Shown here one piece after another: positions 9,693-17,235 of a DNA stretch of 64,000 nucleotides. Under the pieces are notes generated by a model, which was not told where the DNA came from, searched no databases, and worked only from the letters and a program-made list of their open reading frames with translations. This DNA comes from Halobacteriovorax sp. (GTDB lineage: Bacteria > Bdellovibrionota > Bacteriovoracia > Bacteriovoracales > Bacteriovoracaceae): contig PBIO01000019.1 in NCBI GenBank assembly GCA_002720865.1, forward strand, positions 1-64,000, given 5' to 3'. Positions within the stretch are counted from its first letter, which is position 1. Every line of letters starts with the position of its first letter. The position numbers were made by a program, and so were the translations under genes.

Positions 9693-12600
9693 ATGCGCAA
9701 TTTACTCTTAGTCCTTTTCATAACTTTCTCACATAACCTTTACTCAAAAGACTGTTACGAGAATAAAACATTTAGTTTACTAACAAATCAAATAGGCCAA
9801 ATTAAAAACCTGATAAATGGTGAAGCCAGCAAAGGAAGTATCTTCTCTGTATTTGGTGAAGGGTTCGTACTAGATGATACTCCTAGATTAATTAGTGAGC
9901 TCGAAAAGCAAATTTCTGAAAGAAAGGGAATTTCATTAGAGCACGAATTACTTCATAAATGTCTTCAAGATAAAAAGATAAAAAAAGCTGGGGAGTTAAG
10001 CGATTTATCAATAGAGCTTACTAAGCTTAAGATTGAGCTATTAAAAAAGAATAAAAATTTAAATAATGCAATCGTTAAAAAAATCGAAGGGGAAAACCAG
10101 GTCCCGGAGATTAAAGAAGAAATAGAAAAAGAGAATAAGGCCAATGAGCTTGCCAAAAAAGTACTAACGAGTGAAGTCCTTGAAGCAGAAAGTACGGCCA
10201 CGATATCAACCGACTTAAAAGTAAAAAGGCTGGCGGCCTACAGGTCTGAGTTAACAAAACTAAAAATCGAACTCTTAAATAAAAAGATTGAGCATAATAA
10301 GGCCTTAGAGAGCAAGCTGAAGTACTTTGAAGATCAGTCTGAATTTCTCTCAAGCGTTCTCGTCGGAATTGAAGGCTTAAGTGAAAAAGAGGTGGCCCAA
10401 AGATTAAAGAAAACCGAAGAAATATGGATCGAAATCTCCTCTCGAAACTACAATATCTTTAGTGCAGGGGAGAGCTTTCAGCTTCCTCAAATCCCAAGTT
10501 CTACGATTACGGATACGGGAAGAGAAGACTTAAAAAAAGAAGTTTCGGATCTAAACTCCCTTAATCAAGAGTTAGTGATTTTTAAGCAAAAGACTTTAAC
10601 TGAGCTGACCTCTAAAAAGAATCATGAGTTAAAGCTCCATAATGATCTGCTTCTTCAAGTGAATAATGTAAGAGGTGTCCTTTATAATCTAGTACCTAGT
10701 AGCTTTGTTGTTAAGCAGGCTCTTACCATCGATTATTATAAAAAACTTATAAAAGAAGTGGCCGCATCTCCTTTTAGAATCTTAAGCTATTTTTACTCAA
10801 AGTTTCTCTACATTAGGGACGAGGTCTCTAAAGGAAATGAAGGCTTTAAAACCCTCGGTTACGATATTGTTTACTTAAGTTTTCTCGCTCTTATCCTGTT
10901 TGCTATAAAAACGGTTTTCTCAAACTCAAAGCAATGGGTTGATGGGCGGTTTATATCATTTTTTTCAAAATTTAGGTCGTATCAGCTAGTTAAAGGAATC
11001 CTTAGTCTTTGGAATAAAATCAAGGACAATACTGAGGATTTTCTCTGGCTTGGCCTTATTTATTTTATAAGAGAGCAGGATTTCTTAAGTGATGTAAGAA
11101 TCGTTTTAGATATTTTTCAAGTTATTTTTATAAGCCGAATTTTGAAGTCCGGAGTTATCCTTTTCTTTGGTTCTATTTCAAGAATTGACGTAAAAAGCTT
11201 TGCTGCCTTTAAAAGAAAGGCGCAGCTAGCAGCAAAATACTTTACTAATATTTATTTATTTTACGCACTTTCATTGATTTTTGTAGATGCTACCATCGGT
11301 CGAACTTATATCTTCTCTATTGTTAAATATACCGTCATTTTTTATTCCATATTCAGGTTAGTTGTAACTTCTTCAGATTGGGAAAAAGAGTTTTGGGTTT
11401 ATATCGAAAAGAACTTTTCCGGTTTTATCGTATCAAGACTTGAAGGCATTTTTAAGTTTTTTCCTCAAAAGTTAAGGGCCACGACTTATTTTGTTATCAT
11501 TATTTTATTTTCGATATTGAACCTATTTATTAGGGCAACTGAAAACTTTGAAATTTCAAAGAAAATCTCCGCTAATATTTTTAAAAAACAGATTGAGAGA
11601 GTAGAGGCTGAAAATGGATCTGACGAAGTCATTCCAGAGGAATACGCAAAATATTTCCAGTTAAATTCAATAGAGAATGAACAGGATTATGTTTGTGTAA
11701 GCGAAACTCTTGAAAACTCAATTATCGACGAAATGAAGGAGTGGATAACTGATAAAAGCGAGGAGCATTCCCTCGTTGTATTTGGGGACAAAGGAGTTGG
11801 GAAGACTACTCTTCTGAAACACTGTCTTGAAACTATTAATGGTGAATTCTCAGAACAAGTAAGAGTCATTAAAACTAAGATTCCTGCTAAAGTTTTAAAT
11901 AAAAAGGATCTTCAAAATTTTATTTGCCGGACAATTACAGGTAAAGAGATGGAAGGTAGTTTTGATCTCTACCAGTTGGATAAGGCCCTAGACAAAAAAG
12001 TTATTATCTTTTTTGATGAGGCTCAGAATAGCTTTCTTTCCCAAGTAGGCGGGTTTGATGCGTATGAGTATCTACTTAATTTACTTAACTTTAATACGGA
12101 AAATATATACTGGGTAATGTCTTTAAATAAATATAGCTGGCTTTATTTGGATCGGGCCTTCGGAAGAAATCAGTTCTTTAGAAATGTCTTTGAAATTAAA
12201 GGGTGGAGCGATTTAAAGATTAAAGAATTAATTATGAGTCGCCATAGTAAAACGGATTATAGCCTTTCTTTTGATTTACTAATCAATGCGACGAGGTCCC
12301 AAGATGAGATAGATCGCTATGCCTCTGTTGAATCCAAGTTTTTTAAATTACTTTGGGAGCTTTCCCGCGGAAATCCTAGGGCCGCTCTCTATCTTTGGAT
12401 GACGGCACTCTCAAGAAAACGACTGAAGACGTTTAACGTCAATATTCCTAAAGAGGTGGACCTGGCGGGGTTAGAGAAACTCCCAGATGATCTAATGTTC
12501 GTGATAGCTCATGTTTTAAAACATGAAAACTTAACCGCAAAAGAAATTGAACATGTGACAAATCTTCCTAATGGAATCGTTAGGAATGCCATTAAGGTAG

Positions 12601-12716
12601 GTCTAGAAAAGAACTTTCTTTTTAAAGATGAGAGAAATCGATACATGATTGATATCGCAAGCCAATACGGCGTGATTAAATTTTTAACCTTAAAGAACTT
12701 TATTTATGGAAGCTAA
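9693..12716 (+). CDS. membrane-anchored AAA ATPase with periplasmic coiled coil (split MscK-like architecture)
   Basis: A 1007-residue protein of unrecognised family. A signal peptide (MRNLLLVLFITFSHNLYS) is followed by about 350 residues of Lys/Glu/Leu-rich coiled coil, predicted periplasmic. A block of roughly five membrane helices spans about residues 390-620, and then comes a cytoplasmic P-loop ATPase. The Walker A GDKGVGKTT is at 698-706, and the Walker B IIFFDE ends at D775-E776. The C-terminal 80 residues look like a winged-helix or lid domain (LTAKEIEHVTNL). The signal peptide, coiled coil and membrane block recall MscK/MscM channels, whose MscS domain here is the next, 11-bp overlapping gene. 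I infer that the two form one complex. No experimental homologue is known to me. Confidence 0.8.
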   Translation: MRNLLLVLFITFSHNLYSKDCYENKTFSLLTNQIGQIKNLINGEASKGSIFSVFGEGFVLDDTPRLISELEKQISERKGISLEHELLHKCLQDKKIKKAGELSDLSIELTKLKIELLKKNKNLNNAIVKKIEGENQVPEIKEEIEKENKANELAKKVLTSEVLEAESTATISTDLKVKRLAAYRSELTKLKIELLNKKIEHNKALESKLKYFEDQSEFLSSVLVGIEGLSEKEVAQRLKKTEEIWIEISSRNYNIFSAGESFQLPQIPSSTITDTGREDLKKEVSDLNSLNQELVIFKQKTLTELTSKKNHELKLHNDLLLQVNNVRGVLYNLVPSSFVVKQALTIDYYKKLIKEVAASPFRILSYFYSKFLYIRDEVSKGNEGFKTLGYDIVYLSFLALILFAIKTVFSNSKQWVDGRFISFFSKFRSYQLVKGILSLWNKIKDNTEDFLWLGLIYFIREQDFLSDVRIVLDIFQVIFISRILKSGVILFFGSISRIDVKSFAAFKRKAQLAAKYFTNIYLFYALSLIFVDATIGRTYIFSIVKYTVIFYSIFRLVVTSSDWEKEFWVYIEKNFSGFIVSRLEGIFKFFPQKLRATTYFVIIILFSILNLFIRATENFEISKKISANIFKKQIERVEAENGSDEVIPEEYAKYFQLNSIENEQDYVCVSETLENSIIDEMKEWITDKSEEHSLVVFGDKGVGKTTLLKHCLETINGEFSEQVRVIKTKIPAKVLNKKDLQNFICRTITGKEMEGSFDLYQLDKALDKKVIIFFDEAQNSFLSQVGGFDAYEYLLNLLNFNTENIYWVMSLNKYSWLYLDRAFGRNQFFRNVFEIKGWSDLKIKELIMSRHSKTDYSLSFDLLINATRSQDEIDRYASVESKFFKLLWELSRGNPRAALYLWMTALSRKRLKTFNVNIPKEVDLAGLEKLPDDLMFVIAHVLKHENLTAKEIEHVTNLPNGIVRNAIKVGLEKNFLFKDERNRYMIDIASQYGVIKFLTLKNFIYGS

Positions 12717-13542
12717 AAACACGACACTCTTCGTCCTAGACTTTTTGAAATTAGATAAAGTTCTACTCTTTGTCGTTTTAATCGTTGGGATCGTTCTTTT
12801 TATAAAACTTGTTAATATTTGGACGACTAAATTACAGGAAAAGTTTTCTGGGAAAAGACTTACTATTTTACAAGTTGCCACAGTATTCTCTTTCTTTGTT
12901 TATCTGATAGGATTTTTAGGCTCATTTTATGTTGTCTTTAAACCCTCAAAAGAGATTTTAGTCACAATTGGTGGTTCTGCCGCAGTTGCTATTGGTTTTG
13001 CTTTAAAAGACCTGGTGGGATCAGTCATTGCTGGGTTTATCCTTCTTTTTGATAGGCCTTTTCAGGTGGGGGATCGAGTCGCCTTTGGAGATGTTTATGG
13101 AGAAATTAAAAGTATTGGTCTAAGATCAGTAAGACTCCAAACTCTAGACGATAATCTAGTCACAATACCAAACTCGAAATTTTTAACTGATGTCGTTTCT
13201 AGTGGAAATAGTGGCGCTCTAGATATGATGATCGTGGCAAATTTCTATATCTCAATCTACGAAAATTTAGATCGCGTAAGAAAGTCACTTCATGAAGTGG
13301 TTATTACCAGCCGTTTTGTTTATCTTGAAAAACCTGTTGTGGTGACATTTGATGAAGTTCCGCTAGCTCAGACTTTTGCTATAAAAGTAGGAGTAAAGGC
13401 CTACGTGCTTGATGTTAAATATGAGAAAGCTTTTTTAAGTGATATTATCTCTAGAGGTAATAAAATTCTAAAGGAGACGAATGTGGCAAGACCAGTGACT
13501 TACAAACTTGATGAAAGGGGAGATGGTGAAGCTCAGTATTGA
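12706..13542 (+). CDS. MscS-family mechanosensitive channel
   Basis: An inner-membrane channel of 278 residues. Two N-terminal membrane helices are followed by a classic MscS pore helix and loop (GGSAAVAIGFALKDLVGS), then FDRPFQVGDRVAFG and LVTIPNSKFL of the beta domain, and a C-terminal alpha/beta domain. It is much closer to canonical MscS than the gene at 3474. It overlaps the membrane AAA ATPase by 11 bp, and the amino acid:carrier ligase start lies inside its last codons, so the three are translationally coupled. I infer that it supplies the pore of the AAA protein's complex. Alternatively it is an independent osmotic safety valve that shares an operon by chance. Confidence 0.9.
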   Translation: MEAKNTTLFVLDFLKLDKVLLFVVLIVGIVLFIKLVNIWTTKLQEKFSGKRLTILQVATVFSFFVYLIGFLGSFYVVFKPSKEILVTIGGSAAVAIGFALKDLVGSVIAGFILLFDRPFQVGDRVAFGDVYGEIKSIGLRSVRLQTLDDNLVTIPNSKFLTDVVSSGNSGALDMMIVANFYISIYENLDRVRKSLHEVVITSRFVYLEKPVVVTFDEVPLAQTFAIKVGVKAYVLDVKYEKAFLSDIISRGNKILKETNVARPVTYKLDERGDGEAQY

Positions 13543-14698
13543 TATTGGCTTTGAGGCCAATGATGTTGATATTGAAAATCTTCAGACTGGACTGGCCTAT
13601 ATAAGTCAGGATATTGAAAACTTTGTCATTGATAAAGAAAAGCAAATTATCCATTTTGAACTTAAGAAAGACTCAGATGCCTCTCAGTTAGAAGTCTTAT
13701 TAAAAGAAGCTATTCTAAAATTTCGACCTTTTTCAGAGGACGATTCCACAGTAATTCTACATGATTTTAAAAGCTATGAGGTTGCTAACTCAGAAAATGT
13801 CTTCAGTGCTTTGGTAGAAAGGGGAGATATTACAGAGTATAACGAAGGCTACTTCGCTTTAAGCGGAAAGCTTTTGCAAAATATGAAGAAAATTGATGAA
13901 GAACTTTTAATCTTTGCTAGATCGCTGAGTTCAAGTGAAGTTATCTTTCCAATAACTACACAAATCTCTAATTTAAATAAACATGATTTCTTTAAGCAAA
14001 CTCCTCAGTTTGCCAATTTTATTTCTACCCTTAGAGAAGACATTGAGAATATTTCAAATCTATCTAAAGGTCTTTCTGGGGATGACGAGTTCAAAATCAC
14101 TGAGCATGTTCATGATCCAAAATGTATGTGCCGCTCTGCCGTTTGTTTAAATAGTTATCCTCGGTATGAGAATAAAAAATTTAGAGAGGAACAAAATATA
14201 GCCTTAACTTCAGTGGGCAAAGTTTTTAGGAATGAATCCAAAAATGTTCAGTCACTAGAAAGGCTCCATGAATTTTCAATGCGAGAAATTATCTTTTTTG
14301 GGTCAGCCGAATATGTTGATGAATCATTAAAAAAATGTGTTCAGTGGTGTGTGGACTTTATTAAAAAATTCAAATTAAAGTCGATCATACAATCCGCCAA
14401 TGATCCCTTCTTTGCAGAAAATTTTTCTACTTTGCAGTTCTATCAAAGATCACAGGTCTCCAAATATGAAGTAAAACTTTTTAACCCTGCCTCACAAAAT
14501 CAAGTTTCTTGTGCCTCTTTGAATAACCATGGGACTCATTTCTCAAAGGCTTTTAATATTAAGTTTGAAAATGATGAGTATATCTTTACTGGCTGTGCCG
14601 GTTGGGGACTTGAAAGATGTATCTTCATGATTTACGCTCAGTATGGTGTTGAGGAAGAAAAATGGCCGGTTGAGCTAAGAGAGTTCTTTAAGCTTTAG
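13523..14698 (+). CDS. SerRS-like amino acid:carrier protein ligase
   Basis: A class II aminoacyl-tRNA-synthetase homologue of the amino acid:[carrier protein] ligase family, which activates Gly or Ala and loads it on the phosphopantetheine of a small carrier protein. Visible: C208 in CLNSYPRY, motif 2 FRNE (R236) with HEFSMRE (E255), NNHGTHF, and motif 3 GCAGWGLER (C358). C208, E255 and C358 match the Cys-Glu-Cys zinc site known for this family. IFPITTQISNL and FFKQTPQFANF match the family's N-terminal catalytic blocks. It lacks a tRNA-binding arm. Roughly 120 N-terminal residues are extra. Start: ATG at 13523 with AGGGG close upstream; TTG 13508 and ATG 13511 are alternatives. The stop overlaps tail to tail with the carrier protein gene by 11 bp. 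Confidence 0.85.
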   Translation: MVKLSIDIGFEANDVDIENLQTGLAYISQDIENFVIDKEKQIIHFELKKDSDASQLEVLLKEAILKFRPFSEDDSTVILHDFKSYEVANSENVFSALVERGDITEYNEGYFALSGKLLQNMKKIDEELLIFARSLSSSEVIFPITTQISNLNKHDFFKQTPQFANFISTLREDIENISNLSKGLSGDDEFKITEHVHDPKCMCRSAVCLNSYPRYENKKFREEQNIALTSVGKVFRNESKNVQSLERLHEFSMREIIFFGSAEYVDESLKKCVQWCVDFIKKFKLKSIIQSANDPFFAENFSTLQFYQRSQVSKYEVKLFNPASQNQVSCASLNNHGTHFSKAFNIKFENDEYIFTGCAGWGLERCIFMIYAQYGVEEEKWPVELREFFKL

Positions 14699-14912
14699 AT
14701 TCAAGAACTTCAATAATCTTTTGGACAGAATCCATTTGAGCAATTTCACCCATTTCAAATTTCGTGGAAAAGTTAGCTTCTAACTTCATTATCATTTGTA
14801 AATGTTTTAATGAGTCCCACTCTTTTAAATTATTGATAGTAGTGTCAGTATTAACGAGAGATGAATCGACCCCAAAAACTTCTGAAAAAGCAGTTTGAAT
14901 CTTATCTAACAT
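14688..14912 (-). CDS. acyl/aminoacyl carrier protein (DltC-like)
   Basis: A 74-residue four-helix carrier protein. The phosphopantetheine serine is S34 in WDSLKHL, the expected DSL motif; the N-terminal MLDKIQTAFSEVFG and central NNLKEWDS fit DltC/ACP helices. The strong ribosome binding site AAGGAG sits 6 bases before the ATG and overlaps the stop of the upstream microprotein. It is the last gene of a minus-strand set SGNH - MBOAT - microprotein - carrier, and it converges with the ligase gene on the other strand. The likely cargo is an amino acid loaded by that ligase and handed to the MBOAT. A fatty-acid role is unlikely, because no fatty acid synthesis genes are near. Confidence 0.9.
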   Translation of the reverse strand: MLDKIQTAFSEVFGVDSSLVNTDTTINNLKEWDSLKHLQMIMKLEANFSTKFEMGEIAQMDSVQKIIEVLESKA

Positions 14913-14921
14913 AGAAACTCC

Positions 14922-15023
14922 TTAGAATTCGTATTGAAAGCCAAATTGATAATCACCAACGTAGAGTACGCAGACAAGAATTAGTAAGAGTAATAGGTGC
15001 TTAATCATTATGGTTAAATTCAT
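14922..15023 (-). CDS. 33-residue membrane microprotein, DltX-like
   Basis: A very short gene: one membrane helix after a short N-terminus carrying Lys/His (K8, H9), then Asp and an aromatic end, FGFQYEF. The charge pattern predicts an N-in, C-out orientation. It begins with ATG that overlaps the MBOAT stop (ATGA, 15020-15023), and its stop TAA runs into the AAGGAG of the carrier gene, so the coupling is tight. Known for Dlt systems: DltX is a membrane microprotein whose C-terminal hexapeptide tyrosine shuttles the acyl group from the MBOAT to DltD. Here the end is F-x-Y-x-F, one residue shorter between Tyr and the last Phe than the DltX motif as I recall it. The assignment is strong by context and modest by sequence. 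Confidence 0.72.
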   Translation of the reverse strand: MNLTIMIKHLLLLLILVCVLYVGDYQFGFQYEF

Positions 15024-16243
15024 AAGAAGCTAAAGATCCTTTTAATTATTGCCGTCTTTTCAATAAATATTATCAAGCTAAATACAAAAAAATGAAAGGT
15101 GGTTAGAGTTGCTAATACTCTCACCATTGTCGATTTTTGGTACCACTGCATTCTTTCCTGACCGATTAATTTAGGTAATTGAGAGCTATAAACTTGAAAG
15201 GCAGCCAGGGCCAGACCATGACATAGGCCATACCAAAGATAAATGCTCTTATCTCCATGCCAAATTCCTGCTAAAACAAAAGTAATTATGTAGGAAATCG
15301 CCGCAATCGCCACAAAGTTTTTAAATCCTATTCTTATAAAAAACATTTGTAGGGGAAAATAAATATAGTCCCTTAACCAGTGGATAAAACTAATATGCCA
15401 GCGATTCCAAAATTCTTGAATATTTCTGGCCATAAAAGGGTTGTTAAAGTTTTCGGGCGTCTTAATGCCAAGAAGTCTTGATATTCCAATGGCAATATCA
15501 CTATAGCCAGAGAAATCTAAATAAAGAACAAAAGCGTATAAGTAAGAGCCTAGAAATAGACTAGAAGTAGGAGCTTGGGCCAAGTCTATATTATTTATTC
15601 CGAAGATTGATAGTCCATAAAGAGAATCAGCGATTAATGCTTTTTTAAAAAGACCAAAGATTATCCTTGATACAGCTAAGTAGGTTTCTTTTGCACCAAG
15701 AGGAGTGCTTATATTGGCGTCTTGGATAAATCGGTCGAATCGATCGAGTGGTCCCGAAAGGTAACAAGGAAAAAATAAGAGGTAGTTTATATAATGAAAG
15801 AAATCTGGTTTTTCTTTTAGTTTACCCTGGGCCGTATCAACCACAAGAGAGATGAGTTTGAAGCTAAAGAAAGAGATGCCAATAAAGCTAATCGGCTTTA
15901 AAAGGCTTGCGCTTAGTGGAAAAAAAGCAATAAAAAAGCTTTGAACTAAACTGTACTTATAAAAGCATAAAGCAATTAAACTTATCCCAATTAGTAGTCC
16001 AGTCAAGAACTTGTTGGTCCTTTGCTTATATAGGGCCAAGATTCCTAAGTAATTGGTGCCTAGAAAAAAGAAAAGTAATAAGAGGTGCTTTTTACGGTAG
16101 TAAAAAAGCAAGACGATAAAGCTAAGATTTAAAAATGCTAAAACTTTTTTTCTACTTTCTGGCCCCTTACAGAGATTCATAATGAAAAAAGCAATTAGGA
16201 CAAATAAATAGTAAGAAAGCGACTTTAAATCAATCAATTCCAA
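15020..16243 (-). CDS. MBOAT acyltransferase (DltB/AlgI-like)
   Basis: A polytopic inner-membrane O-acyltransferase, 407 residues with about 11 hydrophobic segments. Characteristic blocks are FPCYLSGPLDRF, YLDFSGYSDIAIGISRLLGI, NIQEFWNRWHISFIHWLRDY (N280, H283) and AGIWHGDK with the invariant catalytic-type H329; a second His is at 342 (LCHG). Known for the family: DltB takes D-alanine from carrier DltC in the cytoplasm and passes it across the membrane. The gene overlaps the SGNH gene by 14 bp upstream and the microprotein by 4 bp downstream. AlgI in alginate acetylation is an alternative relative, but the adjacent carrier protein favours a Dlt-type donor. Confidence 0.92.
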   Translation of the reverse strand: MELIDLKSLSYYLFVLIAFFIMNLCKGPESRKKVLAFLNLSFIVLLFYYRKKHLLLLFFFLGTNYLGILALYKQRTNKFLTGLLIGISLIALCFYKYSLVQSFFIAFFPLSASLLKPISFIGISFFSFKLISLVVDTAQGKLKEKPDFFHYINYLLFFPCYLSGPLDRFDRFIQDANISTPLGAKETYLAVSRIIFGLFKKALIADSLYGLSIFGINNIDLAQAPTSSLFLGSYLYAFVLYLDFSGYSDIAIGISRLLGIKTPENFNNPFMARNIQEFWNRWHISFIHWLRDYIYFPLQMFFIRIGFKNFVAIAAISYIITFVLAGIWHGDKSIYLWYGLCHGLALAAFQVYSSQLPKLIGQERMQWYQKSTMVRVLATLTTFHFFVFSLIIFIEKTAIIKRIFSFL

Positions 16244-17177
16244 GCCCCTTTAAATCAATTGAAATGATTTTTCCCATTCTCCTATTTCCAGCTGGATTTA
16301 AATGAATATAATCTAAAAAGTTTTCAGAATTTGACTCTAGGCTATTCGTATAATCAAAAAAGTTAACTTCTAAAGGGACTAACTCTTCTTTTACACTTAG
16401 TTTAAACTCTTCAAAATCTTTTTTATTAAAACTAGTGTCGCTTTTATAGATTGGATCAAAATAGGCCAGAACCACTATTTTGTTCTCTTTGGCCTCTGTA
16501 ATAAGAGATTTTAAAACGCTAAAGCTTTGCTTAGCCTGGGTTTTGATATCAAGAATGCTCACCCCTTTTTTCCCATAGATATCGGTGCTCATTGTGGGAC
16601 CGTAAATTTTCTCTTTTAAATTAAAGATAGCCGACTTTAACTCTAGAAGTTCTACTGGAGGATAGGCCACTTTCATAGAATCCGAAGTAAAAAAAGAAAA
16701 TAGCTTTTTATTATCTTTTTGTTTTTGAATTTGCTCGATATGGTCTTTTGGCAATGAGCTTTTCAATAACTCTAGATTATTCCACTCAAGAAACCCGCTC
16801 TCATTATTGGCAAAGAGCCCTGGATTTATACCTATGATGAGAACTTTTGGATTATATTTAAGGGATAGTTTAAAGAGGGTTAAGAGCGCCGTAGTGGAGG
16901 CACCTAGAACCCCTAGATTATAGCTTTGATAATTGGTGAGATGTTGGTTTAACTGGTCGCTAATATTATTCATTTTGGGAATATTGCTTCCGGCCACGGA
17001 GGAGTTACCGAGAAAAATTATTTTTTCTTTCAGATCAGTTTTTGAAACTAAGTGCTGACTTAAGTTTGTCGCGCCTGTGTAGAGGTAGGGATGAAGGCCC
17101 TCTTTAGAGCTTTTTATAAAGATTGGCTTAATGACAATAATAGTTAAAAAAATACTAAAAAGTAAAAACCGGTACAT
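16230..17177 (-). CDS. SGNH-fold envelope transferase (DltD/AlgJ-like)
   Basis: A single N-terminal membrane anchor (hydrophobic residues 4-20) and a periplasmic SGNH/GDSL domain, 315 residues. The nucleophile block is FLGNSSVAG (S59 or S60), the second block is NLGVLGASTTA, and the catalytic Asp-His pair is DYIHLNPAGN (D289, H292). Known for DltD and AlgJ/AlgX: the final acyl transfer to the envelope polymer outside the cytoplasmic membrane. Start: ATG at 17177 with AAGGAAGAG upstream; the longer TTG start at 17195 has no good site. It leads the set and overlaps the MBOAT start by 14 bp. The acceptor polymer cannot be told from the sequence. Confidence 0.85.
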   Translation of the reverse strand: MYRFLLFSIFLTIIVIKPIFIKSSKEGLHPYLYTGATNLSQHLVSKTDLKEKIIFLGNSSVAGSNIPKMNNISDQLNQHLTNYQSYNLGVLGASTTALLTLFKLSLKYNPKVLIIGINPGLFANNESGFLEWNNLELLKSSLPKDHIEQIQKQKDNKKLFSFFTSDSMKVAYPPVELLELKSAIFNLKEKIYGPTMSTDIYGKKGVSILDIKTQAKQSFSVLKSLITEAKENKIVVLAYFDPIYKSDTSFNKKDFEEFKLSVKEELVPLEVNFFDYTNSLESNSENFLDYIHLNPAGNRRMGKIISIDLKGLGID

Positions 17178-17235
17178 TCGCTCTTCCTTGAACAATATTA
17201 AAATTATAACAAGGGGGAAGCCCTATTACTAGAGT

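Follow-up and report, generated by a model that had tools for sequence, protein, structure and literature searches.

An open reading frame (ORF) of 33 residues on the minus strand of the window (the whole 64,000-nucleotide stretch of Halobacteriovorax sp. DNA analysed here) is confirmed as a real gene. The membrane microprotein that it encodes is conserved among a group of predatory-type bacteria and probably acts as acyl shuttle in a Dlt-like pathway for aminoacylation of the envelope. The operon order on this strand is SGNH protein, DltB-like MBOAT, microprotein and carrier protein. A gene for a tRNA-synthetase-like ligase, which was absent from the initial annotation and is at least as interesting as the microprotein, converges on the carrier gene. 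The features of the locus are:

13508..14698, plus strand: aminoacyl-tRNA-synthetase-like amino acid:[carrier protein] ligase, 396 aa (family and structure matches)
14688..14912, minus strand: phosphopantetheine carrier protein, 74 aa (PP-binding match in Pfam/NCBIfam; Ser34 invariant, 11/11)
14918..14923, minus strand: AAGGAG, which overlaps the microprotein TAA and is likely to be the carrier gene's ribosome-binding site
14922..15023, minus strand: membrane microprotein, 33 aa, C-terminus GFQYEF, predicted acyl shuttle (translation, conservation, codon changes)
14931..14933, minus strand: codon of Tyr31 (position C-2), predicted acyl-accepting residue (invariant, 9/9)
15020..16243, minus strand: DltB-like MBOAT of 407 aa that has no shuttle motif at its C-terminus (Pfam, NCBIfam, structure profile)
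16230..17195, minus strand: SGNH-fold protein with an N-terminal membrane helix, in the DltD position (GDSL-type hydrolase match; model)

A conserved 33-residue microprotein

The microprotein is translated from 15023..14922 as MNLTIMIKHLLLLLILVCVLYVGDYQFGFQYEF (33 aa), and the plus-strand frame over the same interval is interrupted by stops. The initial annotation had proposed the ORF without naming a strand, and both of the junctions that it described are present in the sequence: the start ATG and the MBOAT stop share ATGA, and the TAA abuts the AAGGAG of the carrier gene, running into the GGAG ahead of the carrier ATG. Its proposal of one helix with a positive N-terminus holds for the helix, there being a single hydrophobic stretch, although the charge is weak in this copy (K8, H9), with one Lys at the N-terminal edge of the stretch and acidic residues behind it. 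The microprotein has no Pfam or NCBIfam match.

A search with the MBOAT in 129 genomes of the order found eight with a close form of ~400 residues, and in the phylum set of 368 genomes there are nine with a match at E≤1e-50. All nine loci with a close MBOAT, the ninth being in G157, have a microORF directly behind it that encodes 33–38 aa and ends F-Q-Y-x-x-stop. The end is exactly GFQYEF in seven of the nine; in G038 it is GFQYNL, and in G157 it is NFQYVQ, with no final aromatic residue. Across the nine-sequence alignment only a single Lys ahead of the helix and the F-Q-Y of the C-terminal motif are invariant. The window's copy (G000) and its nearest relative (G037, from the same genus) have 29 differences, distributed 7/0/22 at codon positions 1/2/3, and the last seven codons have no non-synonymous changes in any of the six pairs tested. 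This pattern of codon changes shows the microprotein to be under strong purifying selection. A degenerate DNA pattern for GFQYEF-stop matches ten of the 368 genomes, and seven of these matches are the microprotein gene itself; the other three (G075, G182 and G244) have no comparable ORF or MBOAT adjoining, and a backward control of the pattern gives one match. The initial annotation had suggested a variant DltX-like shuttle, and had named loss of the frame or of the Tyr in relatives as evidence against it. No such loss is seen: with both kept at nine of nine loci, and with the evidence for selection, that reading is well supported.

Position of the tyrosine in split and fused shuttle motifs

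The published shuttle motif is FXYXXF, carried by DltX in the Dlt pathway and, in enzymes of the PatA kind, by the MBOAT itself as a fusion; the motif Tyr of DltX receives the acyl group, and the Tyr is auto-acetylated in PatA (PMC12148441, in the sections available). The microprotein resembles DltX in its very small size and single helix, in the genes alongside it, which encode a carrier, an SGNH protein and a DltB-type MBOAT, and in having a C-terminal aromatic motif with an invariant Tyr. There are also several departures. DltX is ~50 aa (PMC5541007, part of the text) compared to 33–38 aa for the nine microproteins; the microprotein gene sits between the MBOAT and carrier genes; and the host is Gram-negative. 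Furthermore, the Tyr is at C-2 in place of C-3 and none of the nine has a C-terminal FXYXXF, in agreement with the initial annotation, which had put the spacing one residue away from that of the DltX motif. The Pfam DltX profile (PF12459) matches none of the nine microproteins even at E 10, which rules out membership of that family, and it finds nothing in the window's genome, with control matches in B. subtilis and L. lactis. No canonical DltX for direct alignment was found in the Clostridium tunisiense genome or in 99 genomes of its order, and the comparison therefore rests on the motif as printed in the available part of PMC12148441.

Fused motifs are also present in relatives within the order. 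From the order-wide MBOAT matches, 30 loci (8 close and 22 longer) were examined together with nine further places, two of which repeat L013 and L025. Twenty of these 22 longer MBOATs end in an intact FxYxxF-type motif with the Tyr at C-3, and the remaining two have broken frames with ...SPFIYFRF and ...TEFIYFNF downstream. The seven additional places include five with the Tyr at C-3, one that is cut by a contig end, and one (G019 contig 62) without a fused motif. Thus all nine split microproteins have the Tyr at C-2, against C-3 where MBOATs of this order carry the motif as a fusion. The PatA-type motif is like that of the microprotein in following a membrane helix and placing F-x-Y at the C-terminus; it differs in being fused to the MBOAT (mostly in longer open frames), in the C-3 position of its Tyr, and in the use of an acyl-CoA donor (PMC12148441, in part).

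Two loci show that splitting and spacing are separable. In G069 (L055 4199–8040) there are genes for a ligase, a carrier and an MBOAT together with a 419-residue gene, and a microORF behind the gene in the SGNH position ends YIYGGL, which is the usual spacing. Because Asn replaces the second conserved His of its MBOAT, this locus may be inactive, and it is excluded from the set of nine. The second is G019 contig 62, where a microORF between the gene in the SGNH position and the MBOAT ends LVYRGF, also with the usual spacing. As both of these split microORFs keep the usual spacing, a shuttle can be split without being shortened, and the shortened form is a mark of the window's own branch. The conserved C-2 position in that branch suggests that the Tyr of a shuttle motif can be displaced by one residue, a point relevant to the way in which such a peptide reaches two active sites.

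The G019 contig 62 locus (L091 27–4379) contains genes for an FkbH-domain protein, a carrier-like ORF, the SGNH-position gene, the microORF of 39 residues and a DltB-like MBOAT without a fused motif, and it is possibly a shuttle system for another acyl group. At a guess from FkbH chemistry, this group would be glyceryl.

G150 encodes an MBOAT of 464 residues that ends in a fused FVYLQF, and a carrier-like ORF is found three genes away. This MBOAT lies near an SGNH-like gene (by eye) and among ketoacyl-synthase and dehydratase genes (L054 942–4148), and this fused shuttle may be carrier-fed. The same genome also has a ligase, a carrier and an MBOAT cut by a contig end. A division in which fused motifs belong to CoA-fed MBOATs and split peptides to carrier-fed ones agrees with the accessible sections of PMC12148441; the G150 locus warns against a strict rule.

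The microprotein could instead serve the MBOAT as a single-helix subunit with a structural or regulatory task, its conserved C-terminus docking the SGNH protein and never being acylated, and the spacing, which is unlike the proven FXYXXF, is in keeping with this. However, the only invariant residues besides one Lys are F-Q-Y at the C-terminal end, and the MBOAT lacks the fused motif of its longer relatives; therefore there would be no acyl-Tyr carrier in the pathway if the microprotein were absent. We consider the subunit role unlikely.

The MBOAT, carrier and SGNH proteins

The MBOAT matches PF03062 at 1e-21 and the NCBIfam DltB model over its full length at 7.5e-73; its score against TIGR04091 (DltB) is 245.9 bits, under the curated cut-off of 375. 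Its profile matches DltB alone among solved structures (2e-63), its own C-terminus lacks the shuttle motif, and His283 and His329 are conserved in 10/10 and 9/10 sequences respectively. The carrier gene lies immediately after the microprotein gene in the window and in most of the relatives.

The SGNH protein may truly start at an ATG 18 bases downstream of the annotated one. Ser65, Asp295 and His298 are identical in 8/8 sequences, and the predicted model (mean pLDDT 74) has an N-terminal helix followed by an SGNH fold. With this model DltD ranks first in Foldseek (1.5e-6), and the VIA-align scores are Z 17.2 for TesA, Z 14.3 for DltD (248 residues) and Z 14.2 for PatB. By sequence there is no match to a DltD model in Pfam (at E≤1) or NCBIfam, and the profile against solved structures gives nothing better than E 0.23. 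Judging from the model, we describe it as an SGNH-fold protein in the DltD position.

A tRNA-synthetase-like carrier ligase beside the operon

The end of the ligase gene overlaps the end of the carrier gene by 11 bases. The ligase matches tRNA-synt_2b (Pfam) and PRK07080, amino acid--[acyl-carrier-protein] ligase (NCBIfam), the latter at 6.1e-37, and scores 127.3 bits against NF005479, under the curated cut-off of 357. Bll0957-type ligases are the best profile match among solved structures (1.2e-39), followed by archaeal-type SerRS, and the predicted model (mean pLDDT 77) aligns by VIA-align to 4h2w with Z 28.0 and to archaeal SerRS with Z 29.8. Residues C213, R241, E243, R259 and E260 are identical in 9/9 sequences, and C363 and R370 in the eight of nine that reach them. 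The gene at 13508..14698 is thereby predicted to encode an amino acid:[carrier protein] ligase with a class II synthetase core, and not DltA. It is like the Bll0957-type enzymes in having this core, near archaeal-type SerRS, and in adjoining a carrier gene; it differs in its extra N-terminal region, with ~95 residues unaligned to Bll0957, and in having a Dlt-like acyltransferase as its neighbour. Glycine use by the Bll0957-type enzymes is taken from PDB titles. DltA shares the role proposed for the ligase, that of loading a carrier with an amino acid, but has an unrelated adenylation fold; in the window the synthetase-like enzyme takes its place, and the window's genome has no DltA over the cut-off.

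In the 368 genomes of the phylum, the MBOAT (E≤1e-50) is found in nine, the ligase (E≤1e-50) in eight and both in seven (Fisher 1.7e-12, with genomes treated as independent and no correction for kinship). The two genes are adjacent in all seven, in three arrangements: converging (G000, G037), divergent (G035, G093) and in line (G010, G008, G157). At E≤1e-25 the ligase is in 13 genomes of the phylum, with an MBOAT beside it in nine and none in four (G020, G159, G164, G275). Beyond the phylum, ligase loci were examined in Clostridium, Apilactobacillus, Streptomyces, Priestia and Phyllobacterium, and none of the five has an MBOAT within the flanks covered; in a plasmid search there were 75 weakly matching records, and the flanks of the four examined are without an MBOAT. 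A scan of named genomes gave nine ligase loci, and as these came from a single peptide pattern they have little bearing on absence elsewhere.

These data also bear on whether the ligase and carrier belong with the acyltransferase. They might serve a separate NRPS-like pathway, with the MBOAT using acyl-CoA and the neighbourhood being coincidental, and the family ligases without an adjoining MBOAT (5/5 loci examined outside the phylum and 4/13 inside) are compatible with this. Against it, adjacency persists in 7/7 close genomes despite changed orientation, and the carrier gene is directly behind the microprotein gene in the window and most relatives. We regard such a separation as very unlikely. 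A chance ORF without function, which being short and without a family match might be suspected, is rejected with near certainty by the codon-change evidence for purifying selection, with the ORF kept in 9/9 loci, the 7/0/22 codon bias and the unchanged last seven codons in six pairs.

Two of the nine genomes with the microprotein, G016 and G038, lack this ligase. In its place G016 encodes an amino-acid adenylation protein that stands alone, is DltA-like (5.7e-73, below the cut-off) and has a linear gramicidin synthase as its best PDB match; G038 has an acyl ligase with malonyl-CoA synthetase as its best PDB match. The FkbH-domain protein of G019 contig 62 scores over its curated cut-off.

Proposed pathway

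In returning to the microprotein as a probable acyl shuttle, we note that what is observed is the genes, their conservation, the active-site residues, the family relationships and the linkage, and that the roles are transferred from work on Dlt and PatA (PMC12148441, in part); from these we infer the chemical steps, topology, amino acid and acceptor. The ligase would activate a small amino acid with ATP and load it onto the phosphopantetheine arm (Ser34) of the carrier. At the cytoplasmic face the MBOAT, using its conserved His, would accept the aminoacyl group of the loaded carrier and transfer it to Tyr31 of the microprotein. The microprotein would lie in the membrane N-in/C-out, with FQY placed on the outer side of the MBOAT. 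The aminoacyl-Tyr would then move to the periplasmic SGNH protein, whose Ser would relay the group to an acceptor in the envelope, such as a polysaccharide. By analogy the amino acid may be Gly, Ala or Ser. Several points count against the shuttle: compared with the proven FXYXXF the motif is short by one residue, and G157 has no final aromatic; Pfam DltX has no match among the nine microproteins or in the window's genome; the MBOAT and ligase are under the NCBIfam curated cut-offs, and the SGNH protein is without a DltD model match; the ligase is absent in G016 and G038; and the SGNH model is closer to TesA than to DltD by VIA-align. The operon adjoins polysaccharide flippase, glycosyltransferase or methyltransferase genes in G016, G093, G010 and G008, which suggests a polysaccharide acceptor; this is only a hint because the window's operon has no such genes directly adjoining.

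A broader possibility, which we hold to be evenly balanced, is that Bdellovibrionota carry a general carrier-to-envelope module consisting of a carrier, a motif-less DltB-like MBOAT, a split shuttle microprotein and an SGNH protein. The loading enzymes would be interchangeable (the synthetase-like ligase in the window, an adenylation enzyme in G016, an acyl ligase in G038 and an FkbH-domain protein in G019), the motif would be fused in CoA-fed MBOATs and on a split peptide where a carrier is the donor, and in one branch the Tyr would have moved one residue closer to the end. If so, the synthetase-like ligases would serve to aminoacylate the cell surface, and glycine or an L-amino acid would be a more probable substrate than D-alanine. 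The biological role of tRNA-synthetase-like carrier ligases was described in 2022 as unknown (PMC9437257, in the portion available), and the conserved link to a Dlt-like acyltransferase offers them a directly testable one. In the open-access papers searched we found nothing joining the ligase with an MBOAT or with Bradyrhizobium, DltB with Bdellovibrio, or DltB with aminoacyl terms. The locus also suggests that a key part of such pathways, at no more than 33 residues, can escape annotation.

Other ligase contexts

Ligases without a nearby MBOAT include that of G020 (L056 2520–4010), which is 496 residues long and whose C-terminal end gives a carrier-like match. In G164, G275 and G159 (L057, L058 and L059) a ligase and small carrier-like ORFs are in similar clusters, also lacking an MBOAT, with neighbours assigned by eye, and by the same inspection these represent another ligase context. 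In the window itself, the region at 9693–13542 encodes a 1007-residue AAA ATPase-domain protein and a protein of the mechanosensitive-channel type; their genes run in the same direction as that of the ligase, and both are conserved in G037 at 83 and 87% identity.
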